From positions 1 through 37,403 of the forward strand of contig CAIQRS010000277.1 of the NCBI GenBank assembly GCA_903874275.1: a DNA stretch of 37,403 nt, in the 5' to 3' direction. Position 1 is the first letter of the stretch, and the number at the start of each line of letters is the position of its first letter. Positions 8,225 to 23,779 of the stretch are shown here, piece after piece. Source of the DNA: an uncultured Anaeromyxobacter sp. Its GTDB lineage: Bacteria > Myxococcota > Myxococcia > Myxococcales > Anaeromyxobacteraceae. The notes beneath the pieces were generated by a model. The model was not told the DNA's origin, searched no databases, and saw only the letters and a list, made by a program, of their open reading frames with translations. Made by a program: the position numbers and the translations under genes.

Positions 8225-8310
8225 GACCGACCGATCTTGTATCGCAGGTTGGCGGACGTCGCACCCTTCACGGGAATCGCGAAGCGGTAGTCCTCGAGAC
8301 CAGACGGTTC

Positions 8311-9252: not shown

Positions 9253-10235
9253 GGCCCGGAGTTGCCGCGCTCCCGCGCTGCGCGCCTCCGGCGAAGCAGC
9301 TCGAGCAAGGGGTGGAGGAGGAGGACCAACTCGTGCTTCACCCGGGCGGCTGCGGACCCGCGCCGGTGCAACTCGAGTTCCTGGAGCTCGGAACCCAGGC
9401 GCTGCAGGGCAAGCGCCTCGTAGCCGCTCCGAATCTGCAGCAGATGCAGTTCCGCGAGGAAAGACCCCCGCTGGGCCATGGTCTTCGCCGCGTCGTGGCG
9501 GGTTTCCTCGGCCCACATCTCCTCGACTTCCACGATGCGACCCACAGCAGCGAGGCGAAGCCAGAGGTCGACGTCCATGACGAAGTGGTACCGCTCATCG
9601 AGGGGGCCCACCCGATCGATCGCGACCCGGGAGAAGAAGCAGGACGGCTGGGGCACGTGACCCACGTGGTTCCAGTCGGCGATGGAGTCCCTGTCGAGGC
9701 CGCGGGGAGGCACGCGGGGATGGACCACGGTGCCATCGGGCTCGACCGTCCGGGCGCTCGCCACCCAGGCGACCGCCTCTGGCTGCTCGGTGGCCGCGCG
9801 GGCGAGACCTTGCAGCGCGCCCGGGAGCAGCCGGTCGTCGCTGTTGAGCCAACCGAGCAAGGATCCCTCCGATCGCGCGAGCCCCTTGTTGATGGCGTGG
9901 GACTGTCCCCGGTCGGCTTCCGAAACCCAGCCGGAGAGCCACGGTGCGTACTTTCGAATGACGTCGACCGAGCCATCGGTCGACCCGCCGTCGATGACGA
10001 AGTACTCGAGACGCGGGTAGCCCTGGAGAAGCACGGACCGGATCGTCGCCTCCAGGAAGACTGCCTGGTTGAACGATGGGGTGACGAGCGTCACGCCCGG
10101 CGCGGCGGCCGCTGGGAGCCTCGCCGCCGGCGTCTCCGACGTCCACGGCCAGCCCTGCAGTGGTCGGGGGGGAGGAGGAAGCTCGGCGAGGGATGGGGTC
10201 TGGCGGAAGGGCATGGGCGAGGCCGCGACCGACAT
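9249..10235 (-). CDS. GT2 family glycosyltransferase
   Basis: A 328-residue GT-A enzyme. A Pro-rich leader with GWPWTSET (28-35), seen in some GT2 proteins, precedes the core. The core has LVTPSFNQAVFLEATIRSV (50-68), VIDGGSTDGSVDVI (80-93), DRGQSHAINKG (108-118), GWLNSDDRLLPGA (128-140) and VMDVDLWLRLAA (219-230). It resembles the GT2 at 3794-4588 in motif order (GG-S-DGT, NSDD, DLWLR), suggesting a related donor class. The last 60 residues are Arg/Leu-rich. It is the first gene of the leftward run 10235-1006, and its promoter should lie in the 71-base divergent gap before 10307. Confidence 0.87.
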   Translation of the reverse strand: MSVAASPMPFRQTPSLAELPPPPRPLQGWPWTSETPAARLPAAAAPGVTLVTPSFNQAVFLEATIRSVLLQGYPRLEYFVIDGGSTDGSVDVIRKYAPWLSGWVSEADRGQSHAINKGLARSEGSLLGWLNSDDRLLPGALQGLARAATEQPEAVAWVASARTVEPDGTVVHPRVPPRGLDRDSIADWNHVGHVPQPSCFFSRVAIDRVGPLDERYHFVMDVDLWLRLAAVGRIVEVEEMWAEETRHDAAKTMAQRGSFLAELHLLQIRSGYEALALQRLGSELQELELHRRGSAAARVKHELVLLLHPLLELLRRRRAARERGNSGP

Positions 10236-10266
10236 TCTAGGTCATGCATGGCCCGGCGTCGCGAAA

Positions 10267-10301
10267 GCCATGGGAATCGGACGAAAGTGCTATTCCATGG
10301 C
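10267..10301 (+). repeat. Imperfect inverted repeat in divergent glycosyltransferase promoter gap
   Basis: GCCATGGGAAT (10267-10277) faces ATTCCATGGC (10292-10301) across 14 bases; the arms pair fully except for one bulged G. It fills about half of the 71-base gap between divergent genes starting at 10235 (minus) and 10307 (plus), and ends five bases before the plus-strand ATG. It could be an operator shared by both directions, or an mRNA hairpin near the GT4 start. No -35/-10 pair is convincing here. Confidence 0.45.
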
Positions 10302-10306
10302 TGCAC

Positions 10307-11401
10307 ATGCGGATTGCCATGAGCCTTCTCTCGCTCCGCCCCGGGAGCGTCGGCGGGGCCGAGACCTACGTCCGGGCACTCGTCCGCGAGTTGCCCGGGG
10401 TGGCCGGGGGCGATGACCTCCTCCTCGTGCTCGACCGCGACCTCGATCGCGAGATCGCCGCGCCAGGCTGGCAAAGAATGGTGGCACAGGTTTCCGCGGG
10501 GGAGGTCGTGGCCCGCCGGGTGCTCGAGGCGTACACGCCGTGGCGCGACCGCGGGCTCGAACGCCTCTTCGCCACCACCCGGGCCGACGTGCTCCTCTTC
10601 CCGCAACAGTCGATTTTCCCGGCGCGTGTCGAGGTGCCGTCGGTCGTCACGGTGGGCGACCTCCAGCATCTCGCCCACCCCCAGAACTTCGGGCTCTTCG
10701 ACCGGACCTTCCGTTCCAGGGTCTATCCACGCAGCCTTGCGGCGGCACGGCACCTCATCGCGGTCTCCGGGTTCACCCGGCAGGCGCTGCTCGAGGAGAG
10801 CCGGATCGAGCCGGCCCGAGTGACGACCATCCCCCACGGATTCACTCCGAGAGACGTGTCCGGGGTGACGCCGCACGAGGCCGGCGCCCCGTACCTCTAC
10901 TACCCGGCCGCCACCTACCCGCACAAGGACCACGCCACCCTCTTCCGGACGCTCGCGGTGCTGCGAGAAGGGGGAGAGCCCGGCTACCGTCTGCTCCTCA
11001 GCGGGATCCGGACCCGGGAGTGGAAGGGGCTGCGCCGGCTCCTGGGCGATCTAGGTCTCGACGACGTCGTGGAACATCGGGGGTTCGTCTCCCAGGCCGG
11101 GGTCGATGCACTCTACGCGGGCGCGGCGACGGTGGTCTTCCCCAGCCGGTACGAGGGCTTCGGGTTGCCGGTACTGGAGGCGGCCGTGTTCGGCAGGCGC
11201 ATCGTGACCTCCCGGCTACCGGTGTTCGACGAGATCGGGGTTCCGCACCGGTTCCAGATCGACTTCGCCGAACCGGATGCGCTGCTGGTGGCACTTCGGG
11301 AACCAGGGCCCACGGTGCTGGAGAAGCGACCGCTCACCTGGCGCGAGGTGGCGGAGCGGACGCTCGAGGTGCTGCGGAAGGTTGCCCGGAGCGGCCCGTG
11401 A
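10307..11401 (+). CDS. GT4 family glycosyltransferase
   Basis: A 364-residue retaining GT-B glycosyltransferase. The N-terminal acceptor domain opens with MRIAMSLLSLRPGSVGGAET (1-20), where the GG loop is typical. GDLQHLAHPQNF (117-128) and IAVSGFTRQALLEE (151-164) precede the donor domain. There, YPAATYPHKDHATL (199-212), GFVSQAGVDALYAGA (259-273) and PSRYEGFGLPVLEAAVFG (279-296) give the EX7E nucleotide-sugar site. The open frame starts 21 codons earlier, but the extra residues precede the conserved first strand, so this ATG is preferred. It is the first gene of a two-gene plus-strand islet inside an otherwise minus-strand glycan region. Confidence 0.88.
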   Translation: MRIAMSLLSLRPGSVGGAETYVRALVRELPGVAGGDDLLLVLDRDLDREIAAPGWQRMVAQVSAGEVVARRVLEAYTPWRDRGLERLFATTRADVLLFPQQSIFPARVEVPSVVTVGDLQHLAHPQNFGLFDRTFRSRVYPRSLAAARHLIAVSGFTRQALLEESRIEPARVTTIPHGFTPRDVSGVTPHEAGAPYLYYPAATYPHKDHATLFRTLAVLREGGEPGYRLLLSGIRTREWKGLRRLLGDLGLDDVVEHRGFVSQAGVDALYAGAATVVFPSRYEGFGLPVLEAAVFGRRIVTSRLPVFDEIGVPHRFQIDFAEPDALLVALREPGPTVLEKRPLTWREVAERTLEVLRKVARSGP

Positions 11402-11453
11402 ACCCCGCTCCGGAGCCCCGGTCGCATCGTGTAGCATGGGAGCGGTACCGGAC

Positions 11454-12293
11454 ATGAAAGTCGCGTCGATCACCGTGGTGACCCCCTGCCTCGACGCGGC
11501 AGGGCTGGTGTCCCGCACCGCGGAGTCGATCATGGCGCAGACCGCCGTGCGAAGCGGCCGGCTCCGGCTCGAGTACTTGGTGTGCGACGGAGGCTCGCGC
11601 GACGGGACGCTGGAGGCCGTCCGTCGGATCTGCGGCGAGGCGGCCGAGGTCCACTCCGAAAGAGACGGCGGGATGTACGAGGCCTTGGCGAAGGGGCTCC
11701 GCAAGGCCACCGGGGACGTGGTCGCGTACCTGAACGCCGGCGACGTCTATTCCCCTGCCGCGCTCGACGTGGTGGCCGACGTATTCGAGCAGACTCCGGC
11801 GCAATGGGTCACCGGGATCCAGGTCATGTACAACGAGGGCGGCCAGGTCATCGATGCCGTTCTCCCACACCGGTACCGAGGCAGGCTGATCCGCTCTGGA
11901 GTCTACGGCGGCCGGCTGCTCCCCAGGCACGTTCAGCAGGAGTCGACGTTCTGGCGGAGGTCGATGCAGGAGGACCTCGACTACGGCGCCCTCGCGGCCC
12001 TCAAGCTGGCGGGCGACTACTACCTGTGGACGCGGTTCGCCCGACGTGCCGAACTGCGGCTGGTGCAGTCCTGCCTGGGTGGGTTCACCTACCACGCGGG
12101 CCAGAAGTCGGAGGCCGCGGAGGCCTACCGTCGCGAGGTGGCGTCCTTCACCAAGCGGCCGGGTCCGCTCGACCTGCTGGTCGCCGCCGGGGACGGCTTG
12201 GCGTGGCACGCCGCGGCCATCCGATCCCGGGTGCATCACCGCCGCGCCATTCACTATGACCGGGCGACGCGCCGCTGGACGGACGAGCGCTAG
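11454..12293 (+). CDS. GT2 family glycosyltransferase
   Basis: A 279-residue GT2 enzyme. Motifs: ASITVVTPCLDAAGLVSRTA (4-23), LVCDGGSRDGTLEAV (42-56), ERDGGMYEALAKGL (69-82) and AYLNAGDVYSP (91-101). The usual NSDD metal motif is NAGD here, a variant seen in WcaA-like colanic acid and related GT2 enzymes; QQESTFWRRS and DYYLWTRFA follow. The ATG is preceded by GGGAG 12 bases upstream; another in-frame ATG six codons earlier is possible. Its TAG stop shares a CTAG (12290-12293) with the convergent radical SAM gene. Confidence 0.86.
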   Translation: MKVASITVVTPCLDAAGLVSRTAESIMAQTAVRSGRLRLEYLVCDGGSRDGTLEAVRRICGEAAEVHSERDGGMYEALAKGLRKATGDVVAYLNAGDVYSPAALDVVADVFEQTPAQWVTGIQVMYNEGGQVIDAVLPHRYRGRLIRSGVYGGRLLPRHVQQESTFWRRSMQEDLDYGALAALKLAGDYYLWTRFARRAELRLVQSCLGGFTYHAGQKSEAAEAYRREVASFTKRPGPLDLLVAAGDGLAWHAAAIRSRVHHRRAIHYDRATRRWTDER

Positions 12294-13384
12294 GAGCCAG
12301 CCCAGAGATCCTCGCCAGCGTTGTAGCGGCGCAGTCGGGGATGGCCAAGCACCTGCTCGTGGGGAATGTAGTAGGTGCAGGTGCGACAGAGCGGGTGGAG
12401 CTTCCCGCTTGCGAAGGAGTCCCGAAGGCCATCCATCGACGACCCCGTCCAGATCTCCCGCAGGGTCGAGGTCCTCGCGTCCCCGACGACGAGTTGCTCC
12501 GCCGCATCCATGCAGCCGCACCCCAGGGCCGTCCCGTCCGGCAGGATGGGAAGGTAGGTCAACGGAAAGAGGCACGTGCTGGGTCGCGGGGCGGAGGAGA
12601 CAGGATGGAGGCCGGCCCCCTCCGGCAGGTCGTCGCGGGTCACCAGCCCGCCCCAGTTGGCGAAGGTATTGATGACGTCGTTGCAGATGAACCCCAGATC
12701 CCTCAACTGCGCCAGCGTCGGGGACCGAAACACGGACTCGAGCGTTCGGTGGGTCCGCACGTGCAAGAGGAGTTTGCAGTGACCGCCTTCTCGCGCGTTC
12801 AAGGTTGCCAGGCGCTGGAGCGACGACCAGACGTTCTCGAACTGATCGACTCCGAACATGGTCCGGTAGTCGGCCGCGTCGAGCCCCCCGATGCTCACGT
12901 TGACGTGGTCGAGCGATCGCAGAAGGAGCAGGACATCGTCGTCCGAAAGTCTGGGGAGGGCGATCGCGTTCGTGAACATGTGCAGCGTGATGGAAGGGAA
13001 GGAAAGCTTCACGAGGCGGACCCGGTCGACCAGCAATCTGTCGAGAAGAGGGTCGGCGAGGAGCGGCGAGAATCCCAGGAATCCTCCACCGAGGTCGGAG
13101 TACTCCCCGCAGATCTTCTCGAAAAGGTCCATCTCCATCGTCACATCGTGCTGCGGTAGCTTTCGACGAGCGCAGAAGACGCACCTGGCATTGCAGCGGT
13201 CGTTGGTCTCGAGGGCGAGGTGGAGAGGGCGCGTGGCAGTGATGCGCTGCATGTGGGCGAGCGCCGCTCTCCGGGCGGGATCCAGCGCCCAGATCGCGCG
13301 CTGCAACGATTCCCGGGCACGGGTGATCACCCGCTTGGCCGGGTCCGGAAGAAGCGTCGCGATCCTACGAAGGGACGGGGCCAT
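12290..13384 (-). CDS. Radical SAM protein with SPASM-type C-terminal cysteines
   Basis: A 364-residue radical SAM enzyme. The 4Fe-4S/SAM motif is NDRCNARCVFCARR (61-74; Cys64, Cys68, Cys71, spacing CX3CX2C). A barrel core follows, with VNVSIGGLDAADYR (161-174). The C-terminus carries further cysteines: Cys271 (STCLFPLTY), Cys289 and Cys291 (ALGCGCMDAAEQ), Cys333 and Cys336 (PLCRTCTYY). The order, with a GDARTSTLREIW linker (301-312), is that of a SPASM/twitch auxiliary-cluster domain. It is the last gene of the leftward glycan run and starts in a TGATG overlap with the GT-like gene. Substrate unknown; context points to sugar modification (epimerisation, dehydration or methyl transfer) rather than peptide modification, because no precursor peptide is visible nearby. 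Confidence 0.88.
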   Translation of the reverse strand: MAPSLRRIATLLPDPAKRVITRARESLQRAIWALDPARRAALAHMQRITATRPLHLALETNDRCNARCVFCARRKLPQHDVTMEMDLFEKICGEYSDLGGGFLGFSPLLADPLLDRLLVDRVRLVKLSFPSITLHMFTNAIALPRLSDDDVLLLLRSLDHVNVSIGGLDAADYRTMFGVDQFENVWSSLQRLATLNAREGGHCKLLLHVRTHRTLESVFRSPTLAQLRDLGFICNDVINTFANWGGLVTRDDLPEGAGLHPVSSAPRPSTCLFPLTYLPILPDGTALGCGCMDAAEQLVVGDARTSTLREIWTGSSMDGLRDSFASGKLHPLCRTCTYYIPHEQVLGHPRLRRYNAGEDLWAGS

Positions 13385-14277
13385 CAACGAGCGGATCCAG
13401 GGCGCCTTGCGACCCAATCGAGGAGCCTGCGCACCCGGCCGCGAGGCATTCTGCACGCGCCCTGCCACAGTCGGGGGCAGTCGGGATGCTCGACCGGATC
13501 GGGCCAGCGGATCGGGTGCTGCGGAAGCGGGCCGAGACGGGCATTGAGCCAGCGGGTGTCCTGGCCGGCGTTGCTGGCGTGCGCGTCGAGCCCGGCGTGG
13601 GTGACCAGGCTGTGCGGCGGACGCAAGCAGAGGCCTCCCCTCGCGATGTGCAGGTAGGACCACCGCACCGCCCAGATGTTGCGGGCCTTCTCGTTCCGCG
13701 CCATCTCCACGAGGTCGTCCCCGTAGCGTGCCGGATCGATCCCCCTGGCGACGGCGTCCTCCAGATGGGCGAGGGCGTCCCGCTCCATCCCCCGCCAGGC
13801 CCGGCGCCAGGTGCCCCAGAACAAGCACTCGGTCCGACCGTCGAAGTAGGGACCATCCACCCTCGCGGGGGTGGTGCGCGGGTGTGTCCATGCCGTCACG
13901 CTGAGAACGTCGGGCGCGTCCCGGTAGCGCTCCAGGGCCTCGCAGACGAAGTCGTACGTCCCGGGGATGAACTCCAGGTCGTCCTCGACGACGACGATCG
14001 ATTCGTGTGTCGCAAGGACCTCCTCCACGCCGGCGCGGATCGACACGCCGAGGCCGAGGTTCACTGGCCGCTCCACGACCGTCACCTCCGCCCAGTCCAC
14101 GGCGCGGAGCAACCTGCGAACGCCGTCGACCGCCTCCACTTCGGCAGGCGACCGGGGGCCGTCGCTGAATGCATAGAGGAGACGGACGCCGTTCTCCTCC
14201 AGGTACCCAAGCGTCCGCGCGAGGCAGTCCGTCCGCAGGTAGGCGAAGAGGGCCACCGGGACGCGAGGCGGGCTCAT
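13384..14277 (-). CDS. GT-A-fold glycosyltransferase-like protein (EDD motif)
   Basis: A 297-residue protein with a glycosyltransferase-A look. VPVALFAYLRTDCLARTL (6-23) is the first strand and helix. VVERPVNLGLGVSIRAGVE (67-85) is the nucleotide-binding region, and SIVVVEDDLEFIPG (93-106) holds an EDD metal-binding motif like that of GnT-I (GT13) and related bacterial transferases. ECLFWGTWRRAWRGME (150-165) follows, another conserved patch in this group. It starts in an ATGA overlap with the upstream GT4 and ends in a TGATG overlap with the radical SAM gene, tightly linking the three products. Donor sugar unknown. Confidence 0.8.
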   Translation of the reverse strand: MSPPRVPVALFAYLRTDCLARTLGYLEENGVRLLYAFSDGPRSPAEVEAVDGVRRLLRAVDWAEVTVVERPVNLGLGVSIRAGVEEVLATHESIVVVEDDLEFIPGTYDFVCEALERYRDAPDVLSVTAWTHPRTTPARVDGPYFDGRTECLFWGTWRRAWRGMERDALAHLEDAVARGIDPARYGDDLVEMARNEKARNIWAVRWSYLHIARGGLCLRPPHSLVTHAGLDAHASNAGQDTRWLNARLGPLPQHPIRWPDPVEHPDCPRLWQGACRMPRGRVRRLLDWVARRPGSAR

Positions 14278-15431
14278 CGGTCGGTCTCCGGCCTCCAGCA
14301 CCGGATGGACGAAGCGAGCCCGTCGAGGATGCCGAAGACGCCGCGGACGAACTCGCGTCCAGTCCGCTGGCTGGCGCGGAGCCTTCCGCGAGCGATGAGC
14401 CCTTGCCGGAGCCCGGTATCCTCGATCGAGTTCCGGATGGCCTCCGCGAGGCGGTCCGGGTCGGTGGCGTCGACCCGAAGTGCGTCGTCCCCGAGCTGCT
14501 CCTCGGATCCGGAGACGTTCGCGGCGACGACCGGACAGCCGAGCGCGAAGGCCTCGAGCGGGGGCAGGTTCTCCGGACCGAAGAGGCTCACATAGGCGAG
14601 GCAGACGGCGCGGCGGTAGAGCGCGACGAGCTCGCCGGTCGTGACGAATCCCGGGAAGTGGACCCGGGGCTCGAGCCCAAGCTCCGCCGCGACATGGCGC
14701 ACGAGCGGCGCGATCCCCTTGTCCGAGCCCACCAAGACCAGGGCCAGGTCGACGCCCTGATCGCGCAGGATCCGCAGGGCGAGGAGGAGGTTCACGTGGT
14801 TCTTGTGAGGCCAGAACTGCGCCGGGTAGAGCACGAACCGCTCGGGAAGCCCGAACCGATCCAGGATCCCCGGAGCCTCGGGTGGCGCGGCGAGCGCGAA
14901 GCGCGGCGTGGGGTGAGGCAGCACGTGGATGCGCGAAGGAGGGACGCCGTAGAACGAGGTGACCTCGTTCCGCCCCGCCCCCGTCCCGACGATGACCCCA
15001 GCGGCCCGGCGCAGGTTGACCCGATACTGCCTCTCCCGGCGCTCCCACTCGCCTCCCGCGCTCACCTCCGGGAAGAAGGGTTGCAGCCGGTGCTGGAGGT
15101 CCCAGACGACGGTGAGGAACGGAATGTCGGTGGCCGGGTGCGAGGGCCCAAGGTTCCACACCAAATCGATCCCCTCGTGCGATAGCTCGGCCTCGAGGCT
15201 CGACCCCGAAAGGCGCCGGACCAGGCGCTTGCCCATCCCCGGCAGCTCCCGGTATTCGAGGTTGGCTGGATTCTCCGTGACATCCGGGGACGGGCGCAGC
15301 CCGCCGAGCGCAACGAACCGATGCGGAGACTCGCCCGCGAAGCGAGCGAGCTCGTCGAACACTTCGCGCTCGAACGTATGACCGCCGCCGACGTCGGCCG
15401 ACATCTGACTCCCGCGGACTCCGACGCGCAT
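14274..15431 (-). CDS. GT4 family glycosyltransferase
   Basis: A 385-residue retaining GT-B transferase. The N-terminal domain includes the Gly-rich ADVGGGHTFEREVFDEL (12-28) and TVVWDLQHRLQPFFP (107-121). The donor domain has YPAQFWPHKNHVNLLLAL (202-219), HFPGFVTTGELVALYRRA (258-275) and FGPENLPPLEAFALGCPV (284-301), the EX7E site with Glu287 and the Glu in PLEA. The sequence WPHKNH near the domain hinge is typical of mannosyl/rhamnosyltransferase-like GT4 enzymes, though specificity cannot be fixed. Two bases separate it from the methyltransferase upstream. Confidence 0.88.
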   Translation of the reverse strand: MRVGVRGSQMSADVGGGHTFEREVFDELARFAGESPHRFVALGGLRPSPDVTENPANLEYRELPGMGKRLVRRLSGSSLEAELSHEGIDLVWNLGPSHPATDIPFLTVVWDLQHRLQPFFPEVSAGGEWERRERQYRVNLRRAAGVIVGTGAGRNEVTSFYGVPPSRIHVLPHPTPRFALAAPPEAPGILDRFGLPERFVLYPAQFWPHKNHVNLLLALRILRDQGVDLALVLVGSDKGIAPLVRHVAAELGLEPRVHFPGFVTTGELVALYRRAVCLAYVSLFGPENLPPLEAFALGCPVVAANVSGSEEQLGDDALRVDATDPDRLAEAIRNSIEDTGLRQGLIARGRLRASQRTGREFVRGVFGILDGLASSIRCWRPETDR

Positions 15432-15433
15432 GG

Positions 15434-16213
15434 TCAGGCCTCCCGGGTTCCGCGCCGGGCCACGGCGACGACGTGCCAGGTCTTCTCGGTGACACGGCCG
15501 TCGAGGGAGAATCCATCCAGCCAGGCGAGCGGCTGGAAGTCCGCGGAGGTGAGCCAGAGCGCCATCTCCTGGACGAGGAAGTAGCGGTTGGTCTGGGTCT
15601 CCTCGAACGACGCGAAGGTGCCGTCGCGCCGGTGCTCGTTGACCCGGTAGCGAACGTGGGCCAGCTGCCGCTCGCAGTCGAGCTCGGTCTCGGAGATCCG
15701 GAGGACCTCGCCCGCTGGCGTCTCCCAGCGCCGCACCCGGACCGGGTCGAAGTCCCGGAGCATGGCGGCTCCGTGCCAGAACTCGAAGACCAGGAGCCCT
15801 CCGGGGCGTACCGTCGCGTGGATGCCCGCGAAGGTCCGCGAGAGCGCCTCGTTGGATCCGACGTAGCCGATGGAGTCGAACAGGCAGGTTGCGGCGTCGA
15901 AGGGCGCTCCGGGAACGTCCAGCCGGGCCAGGTCTCCGAGGTGGAAACGCGCCGCCGCGCCGGTCGAGGTGGCCCTGCGCCGGGCGACATCGATCATGGA
16001 CGATGAGTGATCGACGCCGACGACCTCGTGCCCGAGCCGCTCCAGTTCCAGCGCGTGCCGGCCGGTCCCGCAGGCGAGGTCGACGACCCGACGCGAGGGG
16101 CCCTCGGCGAAGCGGTCGAGGCAGTCGTGGACGAAGCGCGCCTCGGACTCGTAGTCCTTGGCCTCGTAGAAGAGGTCGTACAGTTCCGCGTGCCGGCCGT
16201 CATAGGAGCTCAT
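15434..16213 (-). CDS. Class I SAM-dependent methyltransferase
   Basis: A 259-residue methyltransferase. The N-terminal helix includes YDGRHAELYDLFYEAKDY (4-21). Motif I is RVVDLACGTGRHALELERLG (42-61), the acidic second-strand residue lies in VVGVDHSSSMI (64-74), and motif III-like ATCLFDSIGYVGSNEAL and PGGLLVFEFWHGA follow. The Y-D-x-x-Y start and CGTGRH motif resemble small-molecule or sugar methyltransferases of surface polysaccharide loci. Starts 15 bases after the DegT gene. Likely O- or N-methylates a nucleotide sugar or glycan (inference). Confidence 0.85.
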   Translation of the reverse strand: MSSYDGRHAELYDLFYEAKDYESEARFVHDCLDRFAEGPSRRVVDLACGTGRHALELERLGHEVVGVDHSSSMIDVARRRATSTGAAARFHLGDLARLDVPGAPFDAATCLFDSIGYVGSNEALSRTFAGIHATVRPGGLLVFEFWHGAAMLRDFDPVRVRRWETPAGEVLRISETELDCERQLAHVRYRVNEHRRDGTFASFEETQTNRYFLVQEMALWLTSADFQPLAWLDGFSLDGRVTEKTWHVVAVARRGTREA

Positions 16214-16228
16214 CCGGACCCCGCTGCC

Positions 16229-17338
16229 TCAGGCTCCGGAGGCGCGGCGGATGGCGCGCGCCACGGTGGCGATGGACTCCTCGTCGAGCGAAACCGAGGA
16301 GGGAAGGTAGAGACCGGTCTCCCAGAGACGGTCGGCGACGGGGCAGGGGACCTCTCGATACCCCGCCTGGGCCCGCAGGAAGGGCTGCTGGTTCATGCCG
16401 CAGAAGAAGGTGCGGGTCTCGATGCCGTCCTCCTTCAGGCGCGCCATGAGTGCGTCGCGCGTCACGCCGAAGCCCGGCTCCACGACCACCGCGTACATCC
16501 AGTAGACGTTTCGCGCCCAGTCGAGCTCGACCGGGAGCCGCAGGCCTGGAACTCCCTCGAGTTGCCTGGAGTAGGCGCGCGCCACCCGCCGCTTTTCGGC
16601 GACGATGAGCTCGACGCGCCGAAGCTGCGACAGGCCCAGGGCGCCCTGGTAACCGGTCATCCGGAAATTGAAGCCGGCCACCTCGTGGCGGAAGCGCGGG
16701 GTGGTGAAGCCCAGGTTTCGCAGCAGGCGGAGCCGCTCGGCCAGGCGGTCGTCGCTCGTCGTGACCATGCCGCCCTCGCCGGTGGTCAGGACCTTGTTGG
16801 CGTAGAAGCTGAAGCACCCCATGTCGCCCAGGCCGCCGGTCATGCGTCCCCGGACGGTCGCCCCGTGCGACTCGGCGCAGTCCTCGATGACGACGAGCCC
16901 GTGCCGTCGCGCGATCTCGAGGAGTCGGTCCATGTCCACCGGGTGGCCGAAGAGGTGCACCGGCAGGATGGCCCGGGTGCGTGGACCGATGAGTCCCTCG
17001 ACGCGGTCGAGGTCGAGGTTCCAGGTCACGTCCTCGGCATCCACAGGCACCGGGACGGCGCCGTTGTGGTACGCGGCCAGCGCCGTGGCCACGTTGGTGG
17101 AGGCGCTGACCAGCACCTCGTCGCCTGGACCGATCCCCGCGGCGGCGACGGCCAGGTGCAGGGCGGTCGTGCCGCTCGTGGTGGCGATCCCGTGCTTGCA
17201 CCCGCAGTACCGTGCGAACTCGTGCTCGAACTCGGCGAGGGCCTTGCCAAAGGAGCCCGAGATCTCCCCGCGGCGCAGCGCCGCGACGACGGCGGCCACG
17301 TCGTCCTCGGTGATCGATGGCTCGAAGACCGGGATCAT
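16229..17338 (-). CDS. DegT/DnrJ/EryC1/StrS-family PLP sugar aminotransferase
   Basis: A 369-residue PLP-dependent enzyme that transaminates a keto nucleotide sugar to an amino sugar. Visible are ATTSGTTALHLAVAAAGIG (52-70, PLP-phosphate loop), VLVSASTNVATALAAYHNGA (75-94), PVHLFGHPVDMDRLLEIARR (126-145), IEDCAESHGA (151-160, Asp153 to the pyridine nitrogen) and FSFYANKVLTTGEGG (176-190, Lys182 as Schiff-base lysine). All catalytic residues are present and length is normal. The frame is open upstream, but the protein begins at an ATG forming an ATGA overlap with the cupin gene. With that cupin it suggests an amino-deoxy sugar in the glycan; no 4,6-dehydratase is in the window. Confidence 0.93.
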   Translation of the reverse strand: MIPVFEPSITEDDVAAVVAALRRGEISGSFGKALAEFEHEFARYCGCKHGIATTSGTTALHLAVAAAGIGPGDEVLVSASTNVATALAAYHNGAVPVPVDAEDVTWNLDLDRVEGLIGPRTRAILPVHLFGHPVDMDRLLEIARRHGLVVIEDCAESHGATVRGRMTGGLGDMGCFSFYANKVLTTGEGGMVTTSDDRLAERLRLLRNLGFTTPRFRHEVAGFNFRMTGYQGALGLSQLRRVELIVAEKRRVARAYSRQLEGVPGLRLPVELDWARNVYWMYAVVVEPGFGVTRDALMARLKEDGIETRTFFCGMNQQPFLRAQAGYREVPCPVADRLWETGLYLPSSVSLDEESIATVARAIRRASGA

Positions 17339-17751
17339 CGCTCCTTCACCTCGACCATCACCTTGTCCATCTCCGTGCCCAGGAAGGGGCCCTGCTTCAC
17401 GGAGATGCACTGCATGTCCTCGATCACCCGGATGGCGTGCACTCCGTGGATCAGCACGATGGCGTCGCCGGCGCTGAGGACCACCTCGCGGAGGAGTTGG
17501 CCCGCGTCGTCGTAGAGCAGGACGGCGACGACGCCGCGCTGGACAACGAACATCTGCTGGAGGTCGGTGATGGTCCGGGTGGCCGCGGCGTGGAAGTGCG
17601 GCGCCTCGACGAAGCCGGCGGGATGCGCGAGGAGGCCGAACTGGAAGGAGGACTCCGGAGGTGAGAAGAATGTGGTGTGCGACACCCGCTCTTCCGCCCG
17701 GATCACCTCGGCGTACTTCTTGCCCCCGTAATCGATGGTCTCGACGCCCAT
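17335..17751 (-). CDS. Cupin-fold protein, possible sugar isomerase or sensor
   Basis: A 138-residue single cupin. VEAPHFHAAATRTI (48-61) and VLIHGVHAIRVIE (99-111) supply a metal- or substrate-binding histidine set. The intervening QQMFVVQRGVVAVLLYDD (65-82) is the usual cupin beta-hairpin. GAGGAG eight bases upstream supports this ATG. It resembles WxcM/FdtA-type 3,4-ketoisomerases in size and position next to a DegT aminotransferase, but I do not see enough conserved FdtA residues to assert that activity. Coupled to the aminotransferase by an ATGA overlap, so a joint function in amino-sugar formation is likely (inference). Confidence 0.72.
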   Translation of the reverse strand: MGVETIDYGGKKYAEVIRAEERVSHTTFFSPPESSFQFGLLAHPAGFVEAPHFHAAATRTITDLQQMFVVQRGVVAVLLYDDAGQLLREVVLSAGDAIVLIHGVHAIRVIEDMQCISVKQGPFLGTEMDKVMVEVKER

Positions 17752-17762
17752 GGGATCGCTCC

Positions 17763-18707
17763 TCAAGCCGGCCCGAGGTCGCCGAGGCGGACGGTCCTGC
17801 CCGTCGCCACGTCCACCACGCGCATGTCGGCGATGACGCGCCGGCGCGCGTCGCCCCGCAGGTAGGTGAGATTTCCATCTGGCCCGCGGGATTCCCGGAA
17901 CCGGGAGTCGACGAAGCCTTCCTCGCAGGCGAGGGGCCGCAGCGGGCCGAGCCGGTCCTTTCGCACGAAGTAGGCGTTGTTGCCGGCCCCGTTGGCGCCC
18001 ACGAAGGCCATGCCCTTCCGCTCCGCCAGCAGGCACAGTGCCTTGAGGGAGGCGCCCCAGAAGAGGTTCGACGAGTGCGCCCGCGTTCGCTGGAAGGCCG
18101 GGTCGTAAGGGACGGTGACGGCCTGGGACGGGCCGAACACCGCGTTGTACTCGCAGACCACGACCACCGGATCGACTGTGTCGATGGCCTCCCAGACCCA
18201 GTAATCGTTGCCGTCGATGTCGACGCTGAGCAGGCCGATGGGGCCTACGAAGCCGTTGTCGCGGAAGAGGCCGTTCACGTTGTCCCGGTCGACGAAGGCA
18301 CCGACCACGGTCAGGTCGTGGCGCCAGTGGTAGTCCTGGGCCCGGACTCGCTCCATGCTCGCTGCGTCCCCGTCGATCACCAGTCCTCGCCAGTTGTCGT
18401 TGAGGAGCAGGAACCGGGTGTTCGACTCCGAGTAATCCTGGACCCCGAACTCGATGAAGGCGTCCTCCATCGGTCCCAGGAGATGGACCAGGTACTGGAT
18501 GATGCCGTCGTCTCCGAACTGGGAGAACACCTTGAACTCGGCGTCGCGGAGTCGCGGGACGTGACCGCGCTCGCGGTTCCGGTCCGCGAGTAGCTTCCCG
18601 GTCAGGAGCCGGGCGTCCTCCAGCGAGCGCTGGAGGTCCGCGAAGCTGCTTCGAAGGGGCTTCAACCCGATGTCAAGGGCTGCTCGCCAGAGGTCCATTC
18701 GATCCAT
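17763..18707 (-). CDS. FkbM-like methyltransferase-fold protein of glycan clusters
   Basis: A 314-residue protein. After a helical N-terminus, residues 59-113 read KVFSQFGDDGIIQYL, FIEFGVQDYSESNTRFLL and NDNWRGLVIDGD, a pattern I associate with FkbM-like proteins of LPS/capsule loci. The IEFGV strand followed by an acidic IDGD at the second strand resembles a SAM-binding fold. LSVDIDGNDYWVWEAID (159-175) is the strand-4 region. The classical GxGxG loop is absent (GVQDYSES), so methyltransferase activity is uncertain. ATG chosen at 18707; a second ATG three codons on is possible. Its stop codon sits within the Shine-Dalgarno region of the cupin gene. Confidence 0.65.
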   Translation of the reverse strand: MDRMDLWRAALDIGLKPLRSSFADLQRSLEDARLLTGKLLADRNRERGHVPRLRDAEFKVFSQFGDDGIIQYLVHLLGPMEDAFIEFGVQDYSESNTRFLLLNDNWRGLVIDGDAASMERVRAQDYHWRHDLTVVGAFVDRDNVNGLFRDNGFVGPIGLLSVDIDGNDYWVWEAIDTVDPVVVVCEYNAVFGPSQAVTVPYDPAFQRTRAHSSNLFWGASLKALCLLAERKGMAFVGANGAGNNAYFVRKDRLGPLRPLACEEGFVDSRFRESRGPDGNLTYLRGDARRRVIADMRVVDVATGRTVRLGDLGPA

Positions 18708-18719
18708 CTCGGGTAGTGG

Positions 18720-18737
18720 GCGGGGTCATATCCCCGC
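18720..18737 (-). repeat. Perfect hairpin between GT4 and FkbM-like genes
   Basis: GCGGGG (18720-18725) and CCCCGC (18732-18737) pair perfectly around a six-base loop TCATAT. It lies in the 58-base gap between stop 18766 and start 18707 on the minus strand, 12 bases ahead of the FkbM-like ATG. There is no T-tract after the stem in the direction of transcription, so a simple intrinsic terminator is unlikely. An mRNA-processing or translation-modulating hairpin is possible. Confidence 0.45.
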
Positions 18738-18765
18738 ATGGTCGAACTCTGCTTTGCCGCAGGCT

Positions 18766-19929
18766 TCATTGCAAGGAAAGGGCCCCTTGGCGGCCAGTCA
18801 GGCCCAGGATTGCCCGGAGCGAATCGCGCTCTCCCTCCAAGGAGAAGAGGTCCCTGGCCCTTCGCCATCCGGCCATTCCCATGGAGGTTCGGAGCGTCTC
18901 ATCCTTCGACAGGTCGAGCAGCGCGCGTGCATGGGCCTCGACGTCGCCGGGGTTGACGAGGAAGCCGGTTTCCCCGTGGACCACGGTCTCGACGAGCCCC
19001 CCACTTCGCCCCGACACCACTGGCAGCCCCTCGGCCATCGCCTCAAGCACCGACACGCCCAATGCCTCGACTTGCCGCGACCGAGGGCCCGTCTGGTTGT
19101 GAGCGGTGAAGATGTCGGACTCCTCGCGAAGCCGCCTCCCCGTTGCCTCGTCCACGAAGCCCAGGAATTGGATGCGGTCGCCGAATGGGGAGGACCGCGC
19201 CATCGCCTCGCAGGACTCGCGAAGACTTCCGTCTCCCGCAAACACAAGCTCCGCGTCTAGCCCACGAGAGCAAGCTAGATCGAAGGCCCTGATCACGAGG
19301 TCGGGCCCCTTGACATCGATGAGACGTCCCAGGAAGAGAACTCGCAGCCGCCCCCTCGAAGACCTCCGGGGCGGCGTGGAGGGCACTGGAACTCCCGGGT
19401 GCTTCACCACTATTCGCTCCACTGGCACCCCTACGTCGATCAACTGTCGCCGGGTGTGCTGGGAGTTGGCGATGAAGGTTGCGAAGGTGGCCAGGCGGCG
19501 AACCGCAGGCAGGTAACCACCGTTGAAGTAGGGACGCTCCGCGTCGTCCTCCCTCCGGATGTCCCAGCTGACGTCGTAGCCGTGGCAATGGACGAGAACG
19601 TCCGCGCCGCAGCCCTGAAGGATCTTCTCGAATCGGCACGCGAAGTCGAGGTAGTGGACCAAGACCTTACGAGGGCGAGTCGTCGTGATGGCCTCATTGA
19701 GCACGACTCCCGGTGTGAGTCGCTGAAACGTTGCGAGCCTCAATGCGCGCTCAAAGACGGAACGATATCTTCGGTCCAAGGCGAAAGCGGGCGCACCGTC
19801 GTCCCAGACCCCGGCGAGCGGTTGGTTGGCGCAGATCCCCGCGAGGTCTCCGGAAACCATCCGGAGCATGCGCTGCATCCAGAGCTCAGATGGAACGTTC
19901 CAGTTGGGCATGACCCAGAGAACGCTCAT
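18766..19929 (-). CDS. GT4 family glycosyltransferase
   Basis: A 387-residue retaining GT-B transferase. The N-terminal domain contains VHCHGYDVSWDIRRED (113-128) and FIANSQHTRRQLIDVGVP (152-169). The donor domain has VLFLGRLIDVKGPDLVIRAF (197-216), LVFAGDGSLRESCEAMA (228-244) and QVEALGVSVLEAMAEGLPVV (286-305), with Glu288 and Glu296 giving the EX7E site. SGGLVETVVHGETGFLV (309-325) is the usual C-terminal GT4 patch. The ATG start overlaps the upstream methyltransferase stop (ATGA). By hand count one line inside it (19741-19800) is 60% GC, against 70% for a line in the DUF4175 gene, hinting at distinct origin. Confidence 0.9.
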   Translation of the reverse strand: MSVLWVMPNWNVPSELWMQRMLRMVSGDLAGICANQPLAGVWDDGAPAFALDRRYRSVFERALRLATFQRLTPGVVLNEAITTTRPRKVLVHYLDFACRFEKILQGCGADVLVHCHGYDVSWDIRREDDAERPYFNGGYLPAVRRLATFATFIANSQHTRRQLIDVGVPVERIVVKHPGVPVPSTPPRRSSRGRLRVLFLGRLIDVKGPDLVIRAFDLACSRGLDAELVFAGDGSLRESCEAMARSSPFGDRIQFLGFVDEATGRRLREESDIFTAHNQTGPRSRQVEALGVSVLEAMAEGLPVVSGRSGGLVETVVHGETGFLVNPGDVEAHARALLDLSKDETLRTSMGMAGWRRARDLFSLEGERDSLRAILGLTGRQGALSLQ

Positions 19930-21200
19930 TCGGTCGAGGGCCCTTGGAAATCGGGGTCGACCGGCGTCCGCTCGTAAATGAAGAAGCTCGACCGGCTCTC
20001 CTCCGGGAACTCGTTGGGAAAGTGCCGGAGGAGCCGCCACTCAGGTAGCTCCCGGCACACGAATCGGGAGAACTCCCGGTCACGAACGTGAGGTGCGTCC
20101 CTGCGATCCCGGTCGGAGGCGTAGATCAACACAAAACGGCGGGAGGCGGCGAACAGGTCGCGCATATACCGTTCGAACACCGCATCCTCAATCAGGTGGT
20201 AGATGACGTCGAGGGACAAGGACAGGTCGAAAGTCTCCCCGGCGATGGGGCTGGCCGCGCCGCCACCGATAAGGAGGAACCGCTTGGTTGCGTCCTTCGC
20301 GTAGCAGGTGCGCAGCCACGCGATGGCGGTCGGGGAGACGTCCAGTCCCGTGTACCGAGGAATTCTCAGGAGCGAGAGCTGGTTGCCGTCGCCGGCGCCG
20401 AACTCGACGACGCGCTCGATCCCGAACTCCGCGACGAAGTCATTGATGATGCGGGCCTTGAAGTTCGCTAACCGTCCATAGGAACCGTCGCCGGAGTTGC
20501 CGCCTGATCGGTACCGGGACTCCCAGAAGGCGGCGGAATCGAAATCGTCCACCGACGAGTCCCTGTCCCGCTGCGCCAGCCGCCGTATCGTTCGATCGGC
20601 CAGACCTCCGACGCAGCGGACAAGGTCGCCCAGGAGAGACTGCCAGCGCGGCCCTATCCGGAAGGACGGGGGTCGCACCCCTTTCCGCAACAGGACGGTA
20701 GTGCGAAGCCCGTCGGCTGATTCATTGGCAACCAAACTGGCGACGGCAGGGAAGTCGTCCAGCGCATACGACCGGCGGCCTTCCTCCGGCACGAGGGTGA
20801 CAACGATGACGGCCTGCCGCGCGTGGTTCAGGCACATACCGAGTAGATCGCGCCCTTCAGCCGCCGGGAGGTCATCCAGGAATCGGTCGAGGAGGACGAC
20901 GTCGTAGAGCCCCGCATCCTCGAGTCGGGCGCGCGGATCGCCGATTCGGAGTTGATCGTAGAGCCGCTCGAGGACCGGCATCACAAGGCCCGTGCGGACG
21001 AGAATCCCGTCGATGCGGCCCTGCCAGATCCCCCGGGGGGGAAGGGAAGGATCATTCTCGGCCGCATCCGGTCCCAGATACTCCCGGAGAAGGCTCCCCC
21101 ATGTCCCGGTGGTGACGCCGACCTCGAGAATGGAGACAGGGGAAAGCTGGGAGACTGCGCCGAGGACGGTAGGGATGTGACCGAAGCGGCTGTGTGGCAT
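19926..21200 (-). CDS. Two-domain methyltransferase-like protein
   Basis: A 424-residue protein with two SAM-fold halves. Residues 20-175 begin SPVSILEVGVTTGTWGSLLR (20-39), a motif-I-like loop, then YDVVLLDRFLDDLP (99-112); the glycine pattern is weak, so this half may be inactive. Residues 220-412 are a convincing class I methyltransferase: FWESRYRSGGNSGDGSYGRL (225-244), VVEFGAGDGNQLSLL (264-278), YTGLDVSPTAIAWL (283-296) and LSLSLDVIYHLIED (326-339). It lies directly downstream of the Wzm/Wzt exporter genes and is coupled to the next GT4 gene. A role in methylating the glycan, perhaps as a chain-end cap recognised by Wzt, is inference. Confidence 0.78.
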   Translation of the reverse strand: MPHSRFGHIPTVLGAVSQLSPVSILEVGVTTGTWGSLLREYLGPDAAENDPSLPPRGIWQGRIDGILVRTGLVMPVLERLYDQLRIGDPRARLEDAGLYDVVLLDRFLDDLPAAEGRDLLGMCLNHARQAVIVVTLVPEEGRRSYALDDFPAVASLVANESADGLRTTVLLRKGVRPPSFRIGPRWQSLLGDLVRCVGGLADRTIRRLAQRDRDSSVDDFDSAAFWESRYRSGGNSGDGSYGRLANFKARIINDFVAEFGIERVVEFGAGDGNQLSLLRIPRYTGLDVSPTAIAWLRTCYAKDATKRFLLIGGGAASPIAGETFDLSLSLDVIYHLIEDAVFERYMRDLFAASRRFVLIYASDRDRRDAPHVRDREFSRFVCRELPEWRLLRHFPNEFPEESRSSFFIYERTPVDPDFQGPSTE

Positions 21201-21211
21201 GAGGATCTAGC

Positions 21212-22480
21212 CTACAACTCGATGAACTTCCAGTCGGCGAGGAGGGAGCAGAGCCCGTTCCTCTGGTGCGAGGGGAAGGGGCGCAGAGTGCGAGCCGGAT
21301 TCTCCTCGACGGAGAACGGGAGGACCTCGAGCACGACGTCCACGGGAGTCTGGCCGGGTCCGTGCACACCGATTGCCCACATGTACTCGCCGCACTGCAG
21401 GGGGAGCGAGGATATGCCCACTCGCACTTTCCGGCGCCCGAAGACAACACCCGGGGCGAAGCCTGGAGTGTCGTAGTGGACGAGTTGGAGCGCCTTCATC
21501 CCATCTCGGGTCATACAGATCGCCGACAGGGTGATCTCGTCCGGGAACTGGCTGTCGAGCGTGAACTCGAGCACCGCAGGCTCAAGGTAGCGGAGCACCC
21601 GGGCGGGCTGACCGTCCACGCCCCTGAGAACCGCCTCGACGACCCGGGCCTCTCCCGAGCCGTAGCGGTTCGGCCAACTGGAAAGATCCGTGGAGGTGAA
21701 GTCTCCGCGCTCCTCGATAGAGTCTTGGTAGGCGGCCATGACGTCATCCGTGGTGCCGGTCCTGGCCACTGTCCCGCCCTCGAGCCAGACTGCGTGCGTG
21801 CACAGGCTCCGCAAGGCGGCCATGTTGTGGCTCACGAAGATGACGGTGCGGCCGCCCTTCGCGATCTCGCCCATCCTTCCCAGGCACTTCCGCTGGAACT
21901 GTGCGTCCCCAACGGCCAGGACCTCATCCACGAGGAGGATGTCAGTCTCCAGGTGCGCGGCGACGGAGAAGGCGAGGCGGGTGTACATGCCGCTCGAATA
22001 GTGTTTTACCGGGGTGTCGATGAACTTCGCGACCCCGGAGAAGTCGACGATCTCGTCGAACTTGAAGCGGATCTCGTCCCGACGCATTCCCAGGATTGCC
22101 CCGTTGAGGAAGATGTTCTCCCGTCCCGTGAGTTCGGGGTGAAACCCGGTACCGACCTCGAGCAGGCTGCTGACCGTCCCCCGGAGCGCGATCTCCCCCT
22201 CGGTGGGATCGGTGATTCGGCTCAAAATCTTGAGAAGCGTGCTCTTGCCGGCGCCGTTGCGCCCGATGAGTCCCACCACCTCGCCGGGGTTCACGTCGAA
22301 ACTTGCGTTCCGCAGCGCCCAGAACACCTCGCGTCGGGATTGGCGTCCGGTCCCGGCGAGAAGGCGACCGGGCAGCGACAGCGCTCCGGCAAGCGTGTCC
22401 CGAAAGGCCCTGTAGGGGACTGCGCCTCCCAGCCAGTAGCGCTTTCCGATCCCCTTGATCGAGATGGCGGGCGTCCCCAC
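21212..22480 (-). CDS. wzt: Polysaccharide ABC exporter ATP-binding protein with Wzt C-terminal domain
   Basis: A 422-residue ATPase powering export of undecaprenyl-linked glycan across the inner membrane. ABC domain: Walker A GLIGRNGAGKSTLL (70-83), Q-loop region TGFHPELTGRENIFLNG (111-127), signature HYSSGMYTRLAFS (160-172), Walker B TDILLVDEVLAVGD (179-192) and His218 in FVSHN. Residues 270-390 form a beta-rich extension like the Wzt carbohydrate-binding domain, which in O9a-type systems recognises the modified non-reducing end of the chain. The frame is open upstream, but the GTG one base after the permease stop, preceded by GGGGG, gives the expected start. Confidence 0.93.
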   Translation of the reverse strand: MGTPAISIKGIGKRYWLGGAVPYRAFRDTLAGALSLPGRLLAGTGRQSRREVFWALRNASFDVNPGEVVGLIGRNGAGKSTLLKILSRITDPTEGEIALRGTVSSLLEVGTGFHPELTGRENIFLNGAILGMRRDEIRFKFDEIVDFSGVAKFIDTPVKHYSSGMYTRLAFSVAAHLETDILLVDEVLAVGDAQFQRKCLGRMGEIAKGGRTVIFVSHNMAALRSLCTHAVWLEGGTVARTGTTDDVMAAYQDSIEERGDFTSTDLSSWPNRYGSGEARVVEAVLRGVDGQPARVLRYLEPAVLEFTLDSQFPDEITLSAICMTRDGMKALQLVHYDTPGFAPGVVFGRRKVRVGISSLPLQCGEYMWAIGVHGPGQTPVDVVLEVLPFSVEENPARTLRPFPSHQRNGLCSLLADWKFIEL

Positions 22481-22481
22481 G

Positions 22482-23327
22482 CTAGCCCCCGAGCATGTCC
22501 ACGAAGACGCGCTCGCGGGACCGGAACCAAGCAATGCCGGACATGAAGACCGCGGAGGCCACGACGAAGGAGGTCCAGAGCAGCGATCCAGGCGCTGGAG
22601 CACCAAGCAGGCACCAGCGGAATCCCTCGGTGACGCCCGCCATGGGGTTGAGCCCCAGGAGCCACCGATAACGCTCCGGCACAAGCGTCACTGGGTAGAC
22701 GACCGGGGTGACAAACATCCAGAACTGGACCAGGAACGGCATCGCGTACATCACGTCCCGATACTCGGTGTTGAGAGCTGCCAGCCAGAAGCCGAAGCCC
22801 AGCGAGGTGAGGAGGAGGAGGAGGAGCGGAAGGGGCAAGGCCAGCAGGGCAACTCGTGGCGCTACCCCGTACCAGATCATGACCACGACGAGAAGCAGGA
22901 GCCCGATCGCGAAGTCCACCAGGGCGGCCACCGCAGTGGAGATCGGGACGATGATACGTGGGAAGTAGACCCGCGTAACGAGTCGCTGATTCGTCACCAA
23001 GCTGCTTCCGGAATCGCTCAGCACCCGGGCGAAGTACTGCCAAGGAAGAAGGCCGGTGAGCGCGAAGAGGGGGTAAGGCGTTCCCCCAATGCCTTCGTAG
23101 ATGCCCGAGAGCCTCCCGAAGAAGACCCAGAACGCTCCCACCAAGAGAGCGGGTTGCAGAACTACCCAGAGGACTCCGATGGCCGTCTGCTTGTAGCGGA
23201 CCTGGACGTCCCGTAGGGCCAGGTACGCCAGCAGTTCCCGGTAGTGGAGCATCTCGCCGAGATCGAGGAATTGCAGACCGCGGGCCGGCCGGATGAACCT
23301 GGTGGTGGGCTCTGGCTCCGCGATCAC
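22482..23327 (-). CDS. wzm: Polysaccharide ABC exporter permease (ABC-2 type)
   Basis: A 281-residue membrane subunit. The cytoplasmic N-terminus has MLHYRELLAYLALRDVQVRY (26-45), the conserved gate-helix segment of Wzm/TagG proteins. About six membrane helices follow (for example VLWVVLQPALLVGAFWVFF, LLTSLGFGFWLAALNTEYRD). The FFGRLSG and LGLNPMAGVTEGFRW patches are typical of the family. GTG start, with AGGGA immediately upstream. It pairs with the adjacent ATPase. Only four bases separate it from the stop of the small exported protein of the sigma-factor operon, so it may be transcribed from that operon. Confidence 0.92.
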   Translation of the reverse strand: MIAEPEPTTRFIRPARGLQFLDLGEMLHYRELLAYLALRDVQVRYKQTAIGVLWVVLQPALLVGAFWVFFGRLSGIYEGIGGTPYPLFALTGLLPWQYFARVLSDSGSSLVTNQRLVTRVYFPRIIVPISTAVAALVDFAIGLLLLVVVMIWYGVAPRVALLALPLPLLLLLLTSLGFGFWLAALNTEYRDVMYAMPFLVQFWMFVTPVVYPVTLVPERYRWLLGLNPMAGVTEGFRWCLLGAPAPGSLLWTSFVVASAVFMSGIAWFRSRERVFVDMLGG

Positions 23328-23331
23328 GTCC

Positions 23332-23769
23332 CTACCCGCCCGCCTTGATGGTGACGAACCAGGCGCTCCCGCCCTGCTCGGCCGAGACCTGCTGCACGAT
23401 GCGCTTGCCCGGCGGCACCGTGACCCGGGACTGGGTCCGCGACCCCGGCGCGCTCACCTCGAAGGTGGCCGCCCCCTGCCGCGCCTCGACGAGCGTCACC
23501 GACACCGAACCGCCTCCCGGCAAGGAGACCGACACAGGCTTCTTCGGCACCATCGACGCCTGCATCTCGCCGGCCTGCTCCCAGCGGACGTAGGCCGTGG
23601 CGGAGAGCTGGCCGCGCAGGTCCTCGAGCCCGGGGGGCACCCCTGGCGCGCCCTGCCGGAACCCCTGGAGCACCCGGATGCGCACCGGCACAGGCGCGTC
23701 GGCCGCCCAGGCGGGCAGGCACACCAGCACCGCCACCGCCACCCACGCCGCCGTCCAGGTGCTCCGCAT
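23332..23769 (-). CDS. Small exported protein of unknown function in the sigma operon
   Basis: A 145-residue protein with a Sec signal peptide: short basic start, hydrophobic core TAAWVAVAVLVCLPAWA (6-22) and probable cleavage near Ala22 or Ala23. The mature part is rich in Val, Ser, Thr and Gly and looks beta-structured, with a glycine-rich stretch SLPGGGSVSVTL (82-93). No family recognised. GGAGG four bases before the ATG makes this start secure. It follows the anti-sigma gene by 10 bases. Because the anti-sigma factor has a membrane helix and a periplasmic tail, this protein might modulate it from outside (inference). Confidence 0.72.
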   Translation of the reverse strand: MRSTWTAAWVAVAVLVCLPAWAADAPVPVRIRVLQGFRQGAPGVPPGLEDLRGQLSATAYVRWEQAGEMQASMVPKKPVSVSLPGGGSVSVTLVEARQGAATFEVSAPGSRTQSRVTVPPGKRIVQQVSAEQGGSAWFVTIKAGG

Positions 23770-23779
23770 GCGCCCTCCG

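Follow-up and report, generated by a model that had tools for sequence, protein, structure and literature searches.

A radical S-adenosylmethionine (SAM) gene is described here from a 37,403-nucleotide stretch of DNA, the whole of which is called the window below, belonging to an uncultured Anaeromyxobacter sp. (assembly GCA_903874275.1, contig CAIQRS010000277.1). Its product has BtrN, the 2-deoxy-scyllo-inosamine dehydrogenase, as its closest solved relative both by sequence profile and by structural re-alignment, with a tie between BtrN and DesII in Foldseek. We propose for it the role of a twitch-type radical SAM enzyme which modifies a sugar of an ABC-exported, O-antigen-type polysaccharide, with a BtrN-like oxidation as the suggested reaction; taken as a whole this proposal is tentative and falls somewhat short of probable. 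A sugar substrate is its firmest part and is probable and, should the substrate indeed be a sugar, the chances of a BtrN-like oxidation are about even. The original prediction, made from the DNA letters alone, had placed here a SPASM enzyme that may act on a sugar or a lipid-linked glycan. That class of substrate is supported, by inference, by the relation to BtrN, the glycosyltransferase context and the lack of a precursor ORF in the gaps of the operon, and the domain has turned out to be a twitch and not a full SPASM domain.

The radical SAM protein and its cysteines

The gene lies on the minus strand, for which the original prediction had given the position and the CX3CX2C motif and no strand; its frame runs undisrupted for 364 codons from an ATG at 13384 to a stop codon at 12292-12290, and an internal stop interrupts the plus-strand frame at 12290-13384. 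Both Pfam domains of the protein score above their cut-offs, Radical_SAM (PF04055) at 33.7 bits against 29.5 and SPASM at 38.1 bits against 21.5, and the open reading frame (ORF) is therefore not a chance frame. The CX3CX2C motif of the superfamily is present as C64, C68 and C71, supported by Pfam and by the fold, and N65, T138, N139 and D293 are retained.

The Glu of the GGE/GxGEP motif contacts SAM. This residue is absent from the window protein, in which Asp111 is found instead after a two-residue insertion; Glu occupies the equivalent site in 29 of 29 relatives, in 24 of them as GEP. The change is a conservative one, Glu being usual in the superfamily and not strictly defining for it. Together with the long branch of the protein in the tree, it could also suggest a decayed or inactive paralogue which has been kept as the partner of the coupled glycosyltransferase. 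However, the three cluster cysteines, the four twitch cysteines and the four further residues named above are all kept in an open, undisrupted frame, and we consider such decay very unlikely.

Five cysteines, C271, C289, C291, C333 and C336, lie in the last 100 residues. In an alignment of 29 sequences, window included (A2), C271-X12-G284-X4-C289 and C333-X2-C336 are invariant and C291 is variable; the partial relative L035 was excluded from A2, from a further alignment (A3) and from the tree, and L004 was excluded from A3. The definitions of SPASM and twitch followed here are those of PMC6231123 and PMC9012708, both used, like all papers cited below, in excerpt. The SPASM motif comprises seven cysteines, CX9-15GX4C-gap-CX2CX5CX3C-gap-C (PMC6231123). 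This strict motif is lacking in the window protein, despite the SPASM match above the Pfam cut-off, and the sequence positions aligned to the BtrN twitch supply the four cysteines which define a twitch of the BtrN type with its single auxiliary cluster. A full SPASM domain is ruled out by the cysteine pattern, and because of this conserved pattern the C-terminal domain is classed as a truncated SPASM motif, that is, a predicted twitch with one auxiliary cluster. Of the SPASM label given originally, the five C-terminal cysteines stand, and the full domain does not.

Ahead of the core the protein carries an N-terminal extension of 54 residues, basic and amphipathic in character (net charge +8, hydrophobic moment 0.69); several relatives have similar extensions and others have short or little-charged ones. 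Judged by its residues, such a helix hints at contact with the membrane and possibly at a membrane-linked substrate.

Relation to characterised radical SAM enzymes

A search of PDB sequences with the A2 profile found BtrN first (E-value 3e-39, 138 bits over two matched stretches), followed by DesII (64 bits), BlsE (58.6), CteB (5wgg, 57.3), MoaA (57.1), PqqE (57.0), SkfB (52.5) and SuiB (50). With a profile of three rows BtrN was again first, at 74 bits versus 44.5 for MoaA; all four twitch cysteines were aligned, as was the Asp after them. An AlphaFold model was built with 28 sequences (mean predicted local distance difference test score, pLDDT, 81.6; predicted template-modelling score 0.80), and in structural re-alignment it matched BtrN (PDB 4m7t) best, with Z 24.7 and a root-mean-square deviation of 2.4 for 232 of 246 residues. 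SuiB (Z 21.9), DesII (21.5, the third protein), ChlB (20.0), anSME (19.7) and SkfB (19.3) came further down and BlsE also matched. The window protein and BtrN have in common a radical SAM core and a four-cysteine twitch; they differ in that their identity in structural alignments is 15-20%, that BtrN comes from an antibiotic pathway (PMC9012708), and that a fifth cysteine, Asp111 and the basic extension at the N-terminus are features of the window protein.

Several results, in this section and in the next, weigh against our reading, and Asp111 is to be counted among them. As a single query the window protein found no PDB sequence at an E-value of 0.01, and the link to BtrN depends on the family profile and on the model derived from it. 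After BtrN, the A2 profile gives similar scores to sugar enzymes and peptide enzymes; by re-alignment it is a peptide enzyme, SuiB, that stands second, and SpeY, the other twitch dehydrogenase, is far lower (Z 13.9). Foldseek placed BtrN first at 4.9e-12, a value tied with, and not separable from, the 6.1e-12 of DesII. In NCBIfam the peptide-maturase models WgkB and PqqE are each weakly matched by 27 of the 29 A2 members, and within the subfamily of SkfB function does not track similarity clusters (PMC6231123).

The main rival is a DesII-like deamination, followed by a peptide substrate encoded elsewhere. DesII is a radical SAM sugar deaminase with a sugar-linked substrate, and it acts after DesI. 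More broadly, a radical SAM sugar enzyme in this operon could deaminate, or bring about an elimination from, an amino sugar made by the DegT aminotransferase, epimerise a sugar as NeoN does, or carry out a decarboxylation as does BlsE, a cytosylglucuronate decarboxylase which likewise has a sugar-linked substrate (PMC3715490). Outcomes of this kind draw support from the rank of DesII (second by profile, third by re-alignment, tied in Foldseek), from the matches to BlsE by profile and re-alignment, and from the presence in the same operon of DegT, for which DesI is among the NCBIfam matches (200.6 bits, cut-off 650). DesII and BlsE share the radical SAM core with the window protein, and their reactions are different ones. 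However, the sequence match to DesII is restricted to the core whereas that to BtrN spans core and twitch, and DegT itself scores better with LegC (280.6 bits) and PseC (269.1 bits) than with DesI. A fully cysteine-ligated auxiliary cluster, moreover, suits an electron acceptor (PMC9012708). Overall, an outcome other than oxidation on a sugar appears possible and rather unlikely.

No NCBIfam equivalog fits the window protein, whose best score was with W_rSAM_matur (50.9 bits against a cut-off of 380), and no peptide-maturase model of NCBIfam came near its cut-off. As a positive control, the one further SPASM gene that turned up in this genome was recognised as a sulfatase maturase (456.7 against 349.45). 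The W-maturase, MoaA and twitch models are matched weakly by all 29 members of A2. The protein might on this basis be taken for a maturase of a metallo-enzyme or cofactor, of the tungsten-oxidoreductase type, the more so as in Thermovirga the gene of a relative is only two genes away from one for a tungsten aldehyde ferredoxin oxidoreductase. The score is nevertheless far below the cut-off, no such oxidoreductase was present among the window genes run against Pfam, and the operon is one for a glycan; this candidate was rejected and is highly improbable. Clustering with peptide-maturing SPASM enzymes, which would have told against the original prediction, was not seen by NCBIfam cut-offs, in an analysis whose trees held a single characterised maturase of this kind, the sulfatase maturase of this genome.

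The window protein is a divergent orphan: no relative found exceeds 28% identity to it, and it forms a long branch in a tree of 41 rows, where its pairing with relative L010 is suspected to be long-branch attraction and was left unused. No match to it was found in viral contigs or phages. With the window protein itself as query there was one plasmid match, a scan of genome contigs gave one distant relative, and a search of 146 relatives gave one weak match besides the gene itself. At thresholds of E 1e-12 and 1e-35 the gene was found neither in the three other genomes of the genus (one of them 74% complete) nor in the rest of the family in the sample. The G+C content is 64-71% in the operon genes and 72-76% in blocks of 2 kb past position 24 kb which, together with the apparent absence of the gene from genus and family, would fit a horizontally variable locus of the O-antigen type.

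The operon and the neighbourhoods of relatives

The genes upstream of the radical SAM gene on the same strand (Table 1) overlap or are separated by gaps of at most 58 nt, and the radical SAM gene closes the operon. Its start overlaps the stop of the preceding gene in a TGATG, and the translational coupling described originally is thus borne out. The description of that neighbour as glycosyltransferase-like is also fair, because NxGL and EDDL are invariant across six sequences, window included, and its predicted structure has a GT-A fold, with GnT-I first (Z 14.4) in a tie with other GT-A enzymes; the model has a mean pLDDT of 60 and is confident mainly in its first 130 residues, and the Pfam match to Glycos_transf_2 is marginal (E-value 0.016). 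The pair of Wzm- and Wzt-like genes, together with the glycosyltransferases, marks an ABC-transporter-dependent O-antigen or polysaccharide locus; ABC2_membrane and ABC_tran are above their Pfam cut-offs, and Wzt_C, at 27.5 bits, is below its own of 30.4.

Table 1. Genes of the operon and the convergent neighbour, with the evidence for each
Feature	Position	Strand	Evidence or remark
Radical SAM/twitch (Pfam SPASM) protein, 364 aa	12290..13384	minus	motifs, Pfam, alignment, model
GT-A-fold glycosyltransferase-like protein	13384..14277	minus	TGATG stop/start overlap with radical SAM gene
GT4 glycosyltransferase	14274..15431	minus	4-nt overlap with 13384..14277 gene
SAM methyltransferase	15434..16213	minus	Pfam
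DegT/DnrJ/EryC1/StrS sugar aminotransferase	16229..17338	minus	nearest to perosamine synthetase among solved structures (3bn1, 298 bits; search used a start 54 nt upstream of the gene start)
Small protein, weakly WbuC-cupin-like	17335..17751	minus	29.8 bits, cut-off 42; no Pfam match
314-aa protein	17763..18707	minus	unmatched in Pfam and NCBIfam; resembles FkbM/methyltransferases by eye only
GT4 glycosyltransferase (start approximate)	18766..20040	minus	Pfam
Protein with C-terminal methyltransferase domain	19926..21200	minus	Pfam
ABC-transporter ATPase, Wzt-like (start approximate)	21212..22684	minus	weak Wzt C-terminal domain
ABC-2 permease, Wzm-like	22482..23327	minus	Pfam
GT2 glycosyltransferase	11277..12293	plus	convergent with radical SAM gene, stop codons overlap

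The original prediction had seen no small precursor ORF near the gene, and none of precursor size was found in the gaps of the operon, in a search of small ORFs mostly outside annotated genes (6713-24900) and exclusive of those nested in genes; the search gave two such ORFs, both about 3 kb from the radical SAM gene. Pfam found no PqqD-type domain in the radical SAM protein, and the four PqqD-like domains found in the genome are all on other contigs. It is here that the second rival has to be weighed, namely a maturase like SkfB, SuiB or the sulfatase maturases, whose peptide or protein substrate is encoded elsewhere in the genome. SuiB, SkfB and anSME have the same fold as the window protein (Z 19-22), the twitch is not exclusive of peptide substrates, since SkfB is itself a twitch peptide enzyme (PMC6231123), and PqqD-like domains do exist in this genome. 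On the other hand, the protein differs from these enzymes in having no PqqD-type domain by Pfam, no precursor in the gaps of its operon and scores below the NCBIfam cut-offs, and a peptide substrate seems unlikely.

The gene neighbourhoods of relatives bear on the context. A GT2 or GT4 gene lies within 3 kb at 19 of 38 radical SAM places, window included, as detected by models built from the window proteins and iterated on the loci, some of which end at contig edges. Of 27 genomes with a radical SAM match, 22 entered the GT2 count and 14 the DegT count. A GT2 gene was present within 3 kb in 9 of 21 genomes against 1.07 expected, and in 4 against 0.41 expected (P 0.0005) when close kin were thinned out to leave 11 genomes, the observed cases being drawn from our own glycosyltransferase models and the expectation from counts made with Pfam. 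A DegT gene is present in 6 of the 35 loci when that of the window is counted (5 of the 34 loci of relatives), in a count which listed only loci longer than 4300 bases; 3 of 14 genomes have one within 6 kb, where 0.11 would be expected, or 2 of 13 (P 0.005) without the genome of the window. In CP026658, where it is annotated as a perosamine synthetase, and in NZ_CP026539 the DegT gene adjoins the radical SAM gene.

Two of these surveys belong with the contrary results given above. The DegT label is scattered on the tree, with 127 of 500 shuffles as low; a DegT-linked clade was therefore rejected, and DegT may mark glycan loci only. Plasmid relatives were examined in 12 annotated regions (L004 and 11 others, three of the 12 from Azospirillum) out of 31 and 26 matching records, among which are also plasmids of Brachyspira and Lawsonia, and a glycosyltransferase or nucleotide-sugar gene lies within three genes in 5 of the 12 (L004, L062, L063, L065 and L069). 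The other seven have none within that distance, and among these one lies two genes from a tungsten oxidoreductase and another is separated by four genes' distance from a TOMM leader-binding protein. Of the same seven, L066 has an anhydromuramic acid kinase gene as its neighbour and L071 has beta-glucosidase genes. The neighbourhood tests show a glycan-locus context and no DegT-specific clade.

Some further arrangements among relatives and in the window are recorded in their own right. The neighbours of relatives were read by eye, those of L012 from its ORF list, and names such as HpnA-like and NeuB-like were given by eye from N-termini, with no family search. Twitch radical SAM genes of one close-knit clade (L043-L055) have a gene for GT2 or GT4 no more than 1.2 kb away in 11 loci (L043, L045-L048 and L050-L055) and none at L044 and L049, often with an epimerase-like short-chain dehydrogenase/reductase and a multi-membrane protein (by eye). 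At L039 (6595-11981 and 16769-18301), L041 (420-9159) and L042 (10872-14050) relatives are found among several proteins resembling, by eye, B12-binding radical SAM enzymes and cysteine-rich methyltransferases, and at L012 (917-4145) a relative adjoins a NeuB-like synthase (by eye) and a GT2 gene. In the window itself, a UDP-glucose/GDP-mannose dehydrogenase gene on the minus strand (1006-3753) seems to be interrupted by an intein that carries a homing domain of the LAGLIDADG type (LAGLIDADG_3 exceeds its cut-off; Intein_splicing scores 35.6 bits against 35.8), and an uncharacterised nucleotidyltransferase (PF14907, 96.9 bits; 5777-6703, minus strand) adjoins glycosyltransferases. A GT2-methyltransferase fusion occupies 6713-9248, in which the best GT2 stretch begins at profile position 57, and after it comes a gap of 292 nt in which two small ORFs of odd appearance lie, possibly the result of a frameshift or a wrong start.

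A proposed reaction and its significance

If the enzyme oxidises a sugar as we propose, C64, C68 and C71 would hold a [4Fe-4S] cluster which cleaves SAM to give a 5'-deoxyadenosyl radical, the radical would abstract a hydrogen from a hydroxyl-bearing carbon of the sugar, and the auxiliary cluster held by C271, C289, C333 and C336 would take the second electron to leave a ketone. The scheme follows that of BtrN, an enzyme which oxidises an aminocyclitol by two electrons, one of which is proposed to go to its auxiliary cluster (PMC9012708). From there the ketone might pass to the DegT aminotransferase encoded in this operon and receive an amino group, a hand-over which is possible and on balance doubtful. 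In the synthesis of butirosin, BtrN is paired with the 2-deoxy-scyllo-inosose aminotransferase. The substrate may be linked to the membrane, in keeping with the basic amphipathic N-terminal helix, and a lipid-linked substrate is likewise conceivable, with the balance tilting against it. Still more speculative, and on the unlikely side, is the idea of a BtrN-like dehydrogenase which acts on a lipid- or nucleotide-linked sugar in O-antigen assembly and lets DegT aminate a carbon outside the usual nucleotide-sugar dehydratase route. In that case the relatives next to DegT or glycosyltransferase genes, which come from several phyla, would together be a scattered and so far unrecognised class of enzymes that tailor glycans by radical chemistry.

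Radical SAM genes in such surroundings are already on record. A plasmid of Brachyspira hyodysenteriae carries several, unassigned in function, among rfb genes and glycosyltransferases (PMC4267127), and the capsule-related cluster of Campylobacter jejuni HS:19 carries one, also unassigned (PMC8743553). Both clusters resemble that of the window in having radical SAM genes among glycosyltransferase or sugar genes, in different organisms; the Campylobacter likeness is one of gene setting. When used as tblastn queries, two relatives of the window protein matched the Brachyspira plasmid genes; the window protein itself, at an E-value of 1e-5, did not. In the open-access literature searched, mostly by listing and in excerpt, no function was found assigned to a radical SAM enzyme of an O-antigen or capsule cluster, which is weak evidence; PMC12013268 (hopanoid HpnH) and PMC3130047 (a 68-aa biofilm ORF) were set aside as irrelevant to the question of this gene. 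The window protein is thus a divergent variant in a glycan-cluster setting which is on record, apparently without an assigned function there.

Should the family placement alone hold, it would be a useful correction, in that the protein would be a twitch enzyme near BtrN and not a SPASM peptide maturase. Radical chemistry on sugars is known mainly from antibiotic pathways. If the proposed function is true, such chemistry would also contribute to the diversity of bacterial surface polysaccharides. This would account for unexplained radical SAM genes in lipooligosaccharide and capsule clusters, and those who study glycan chemistry would have a source of uncommon keto- and amino-sugars that they could test.

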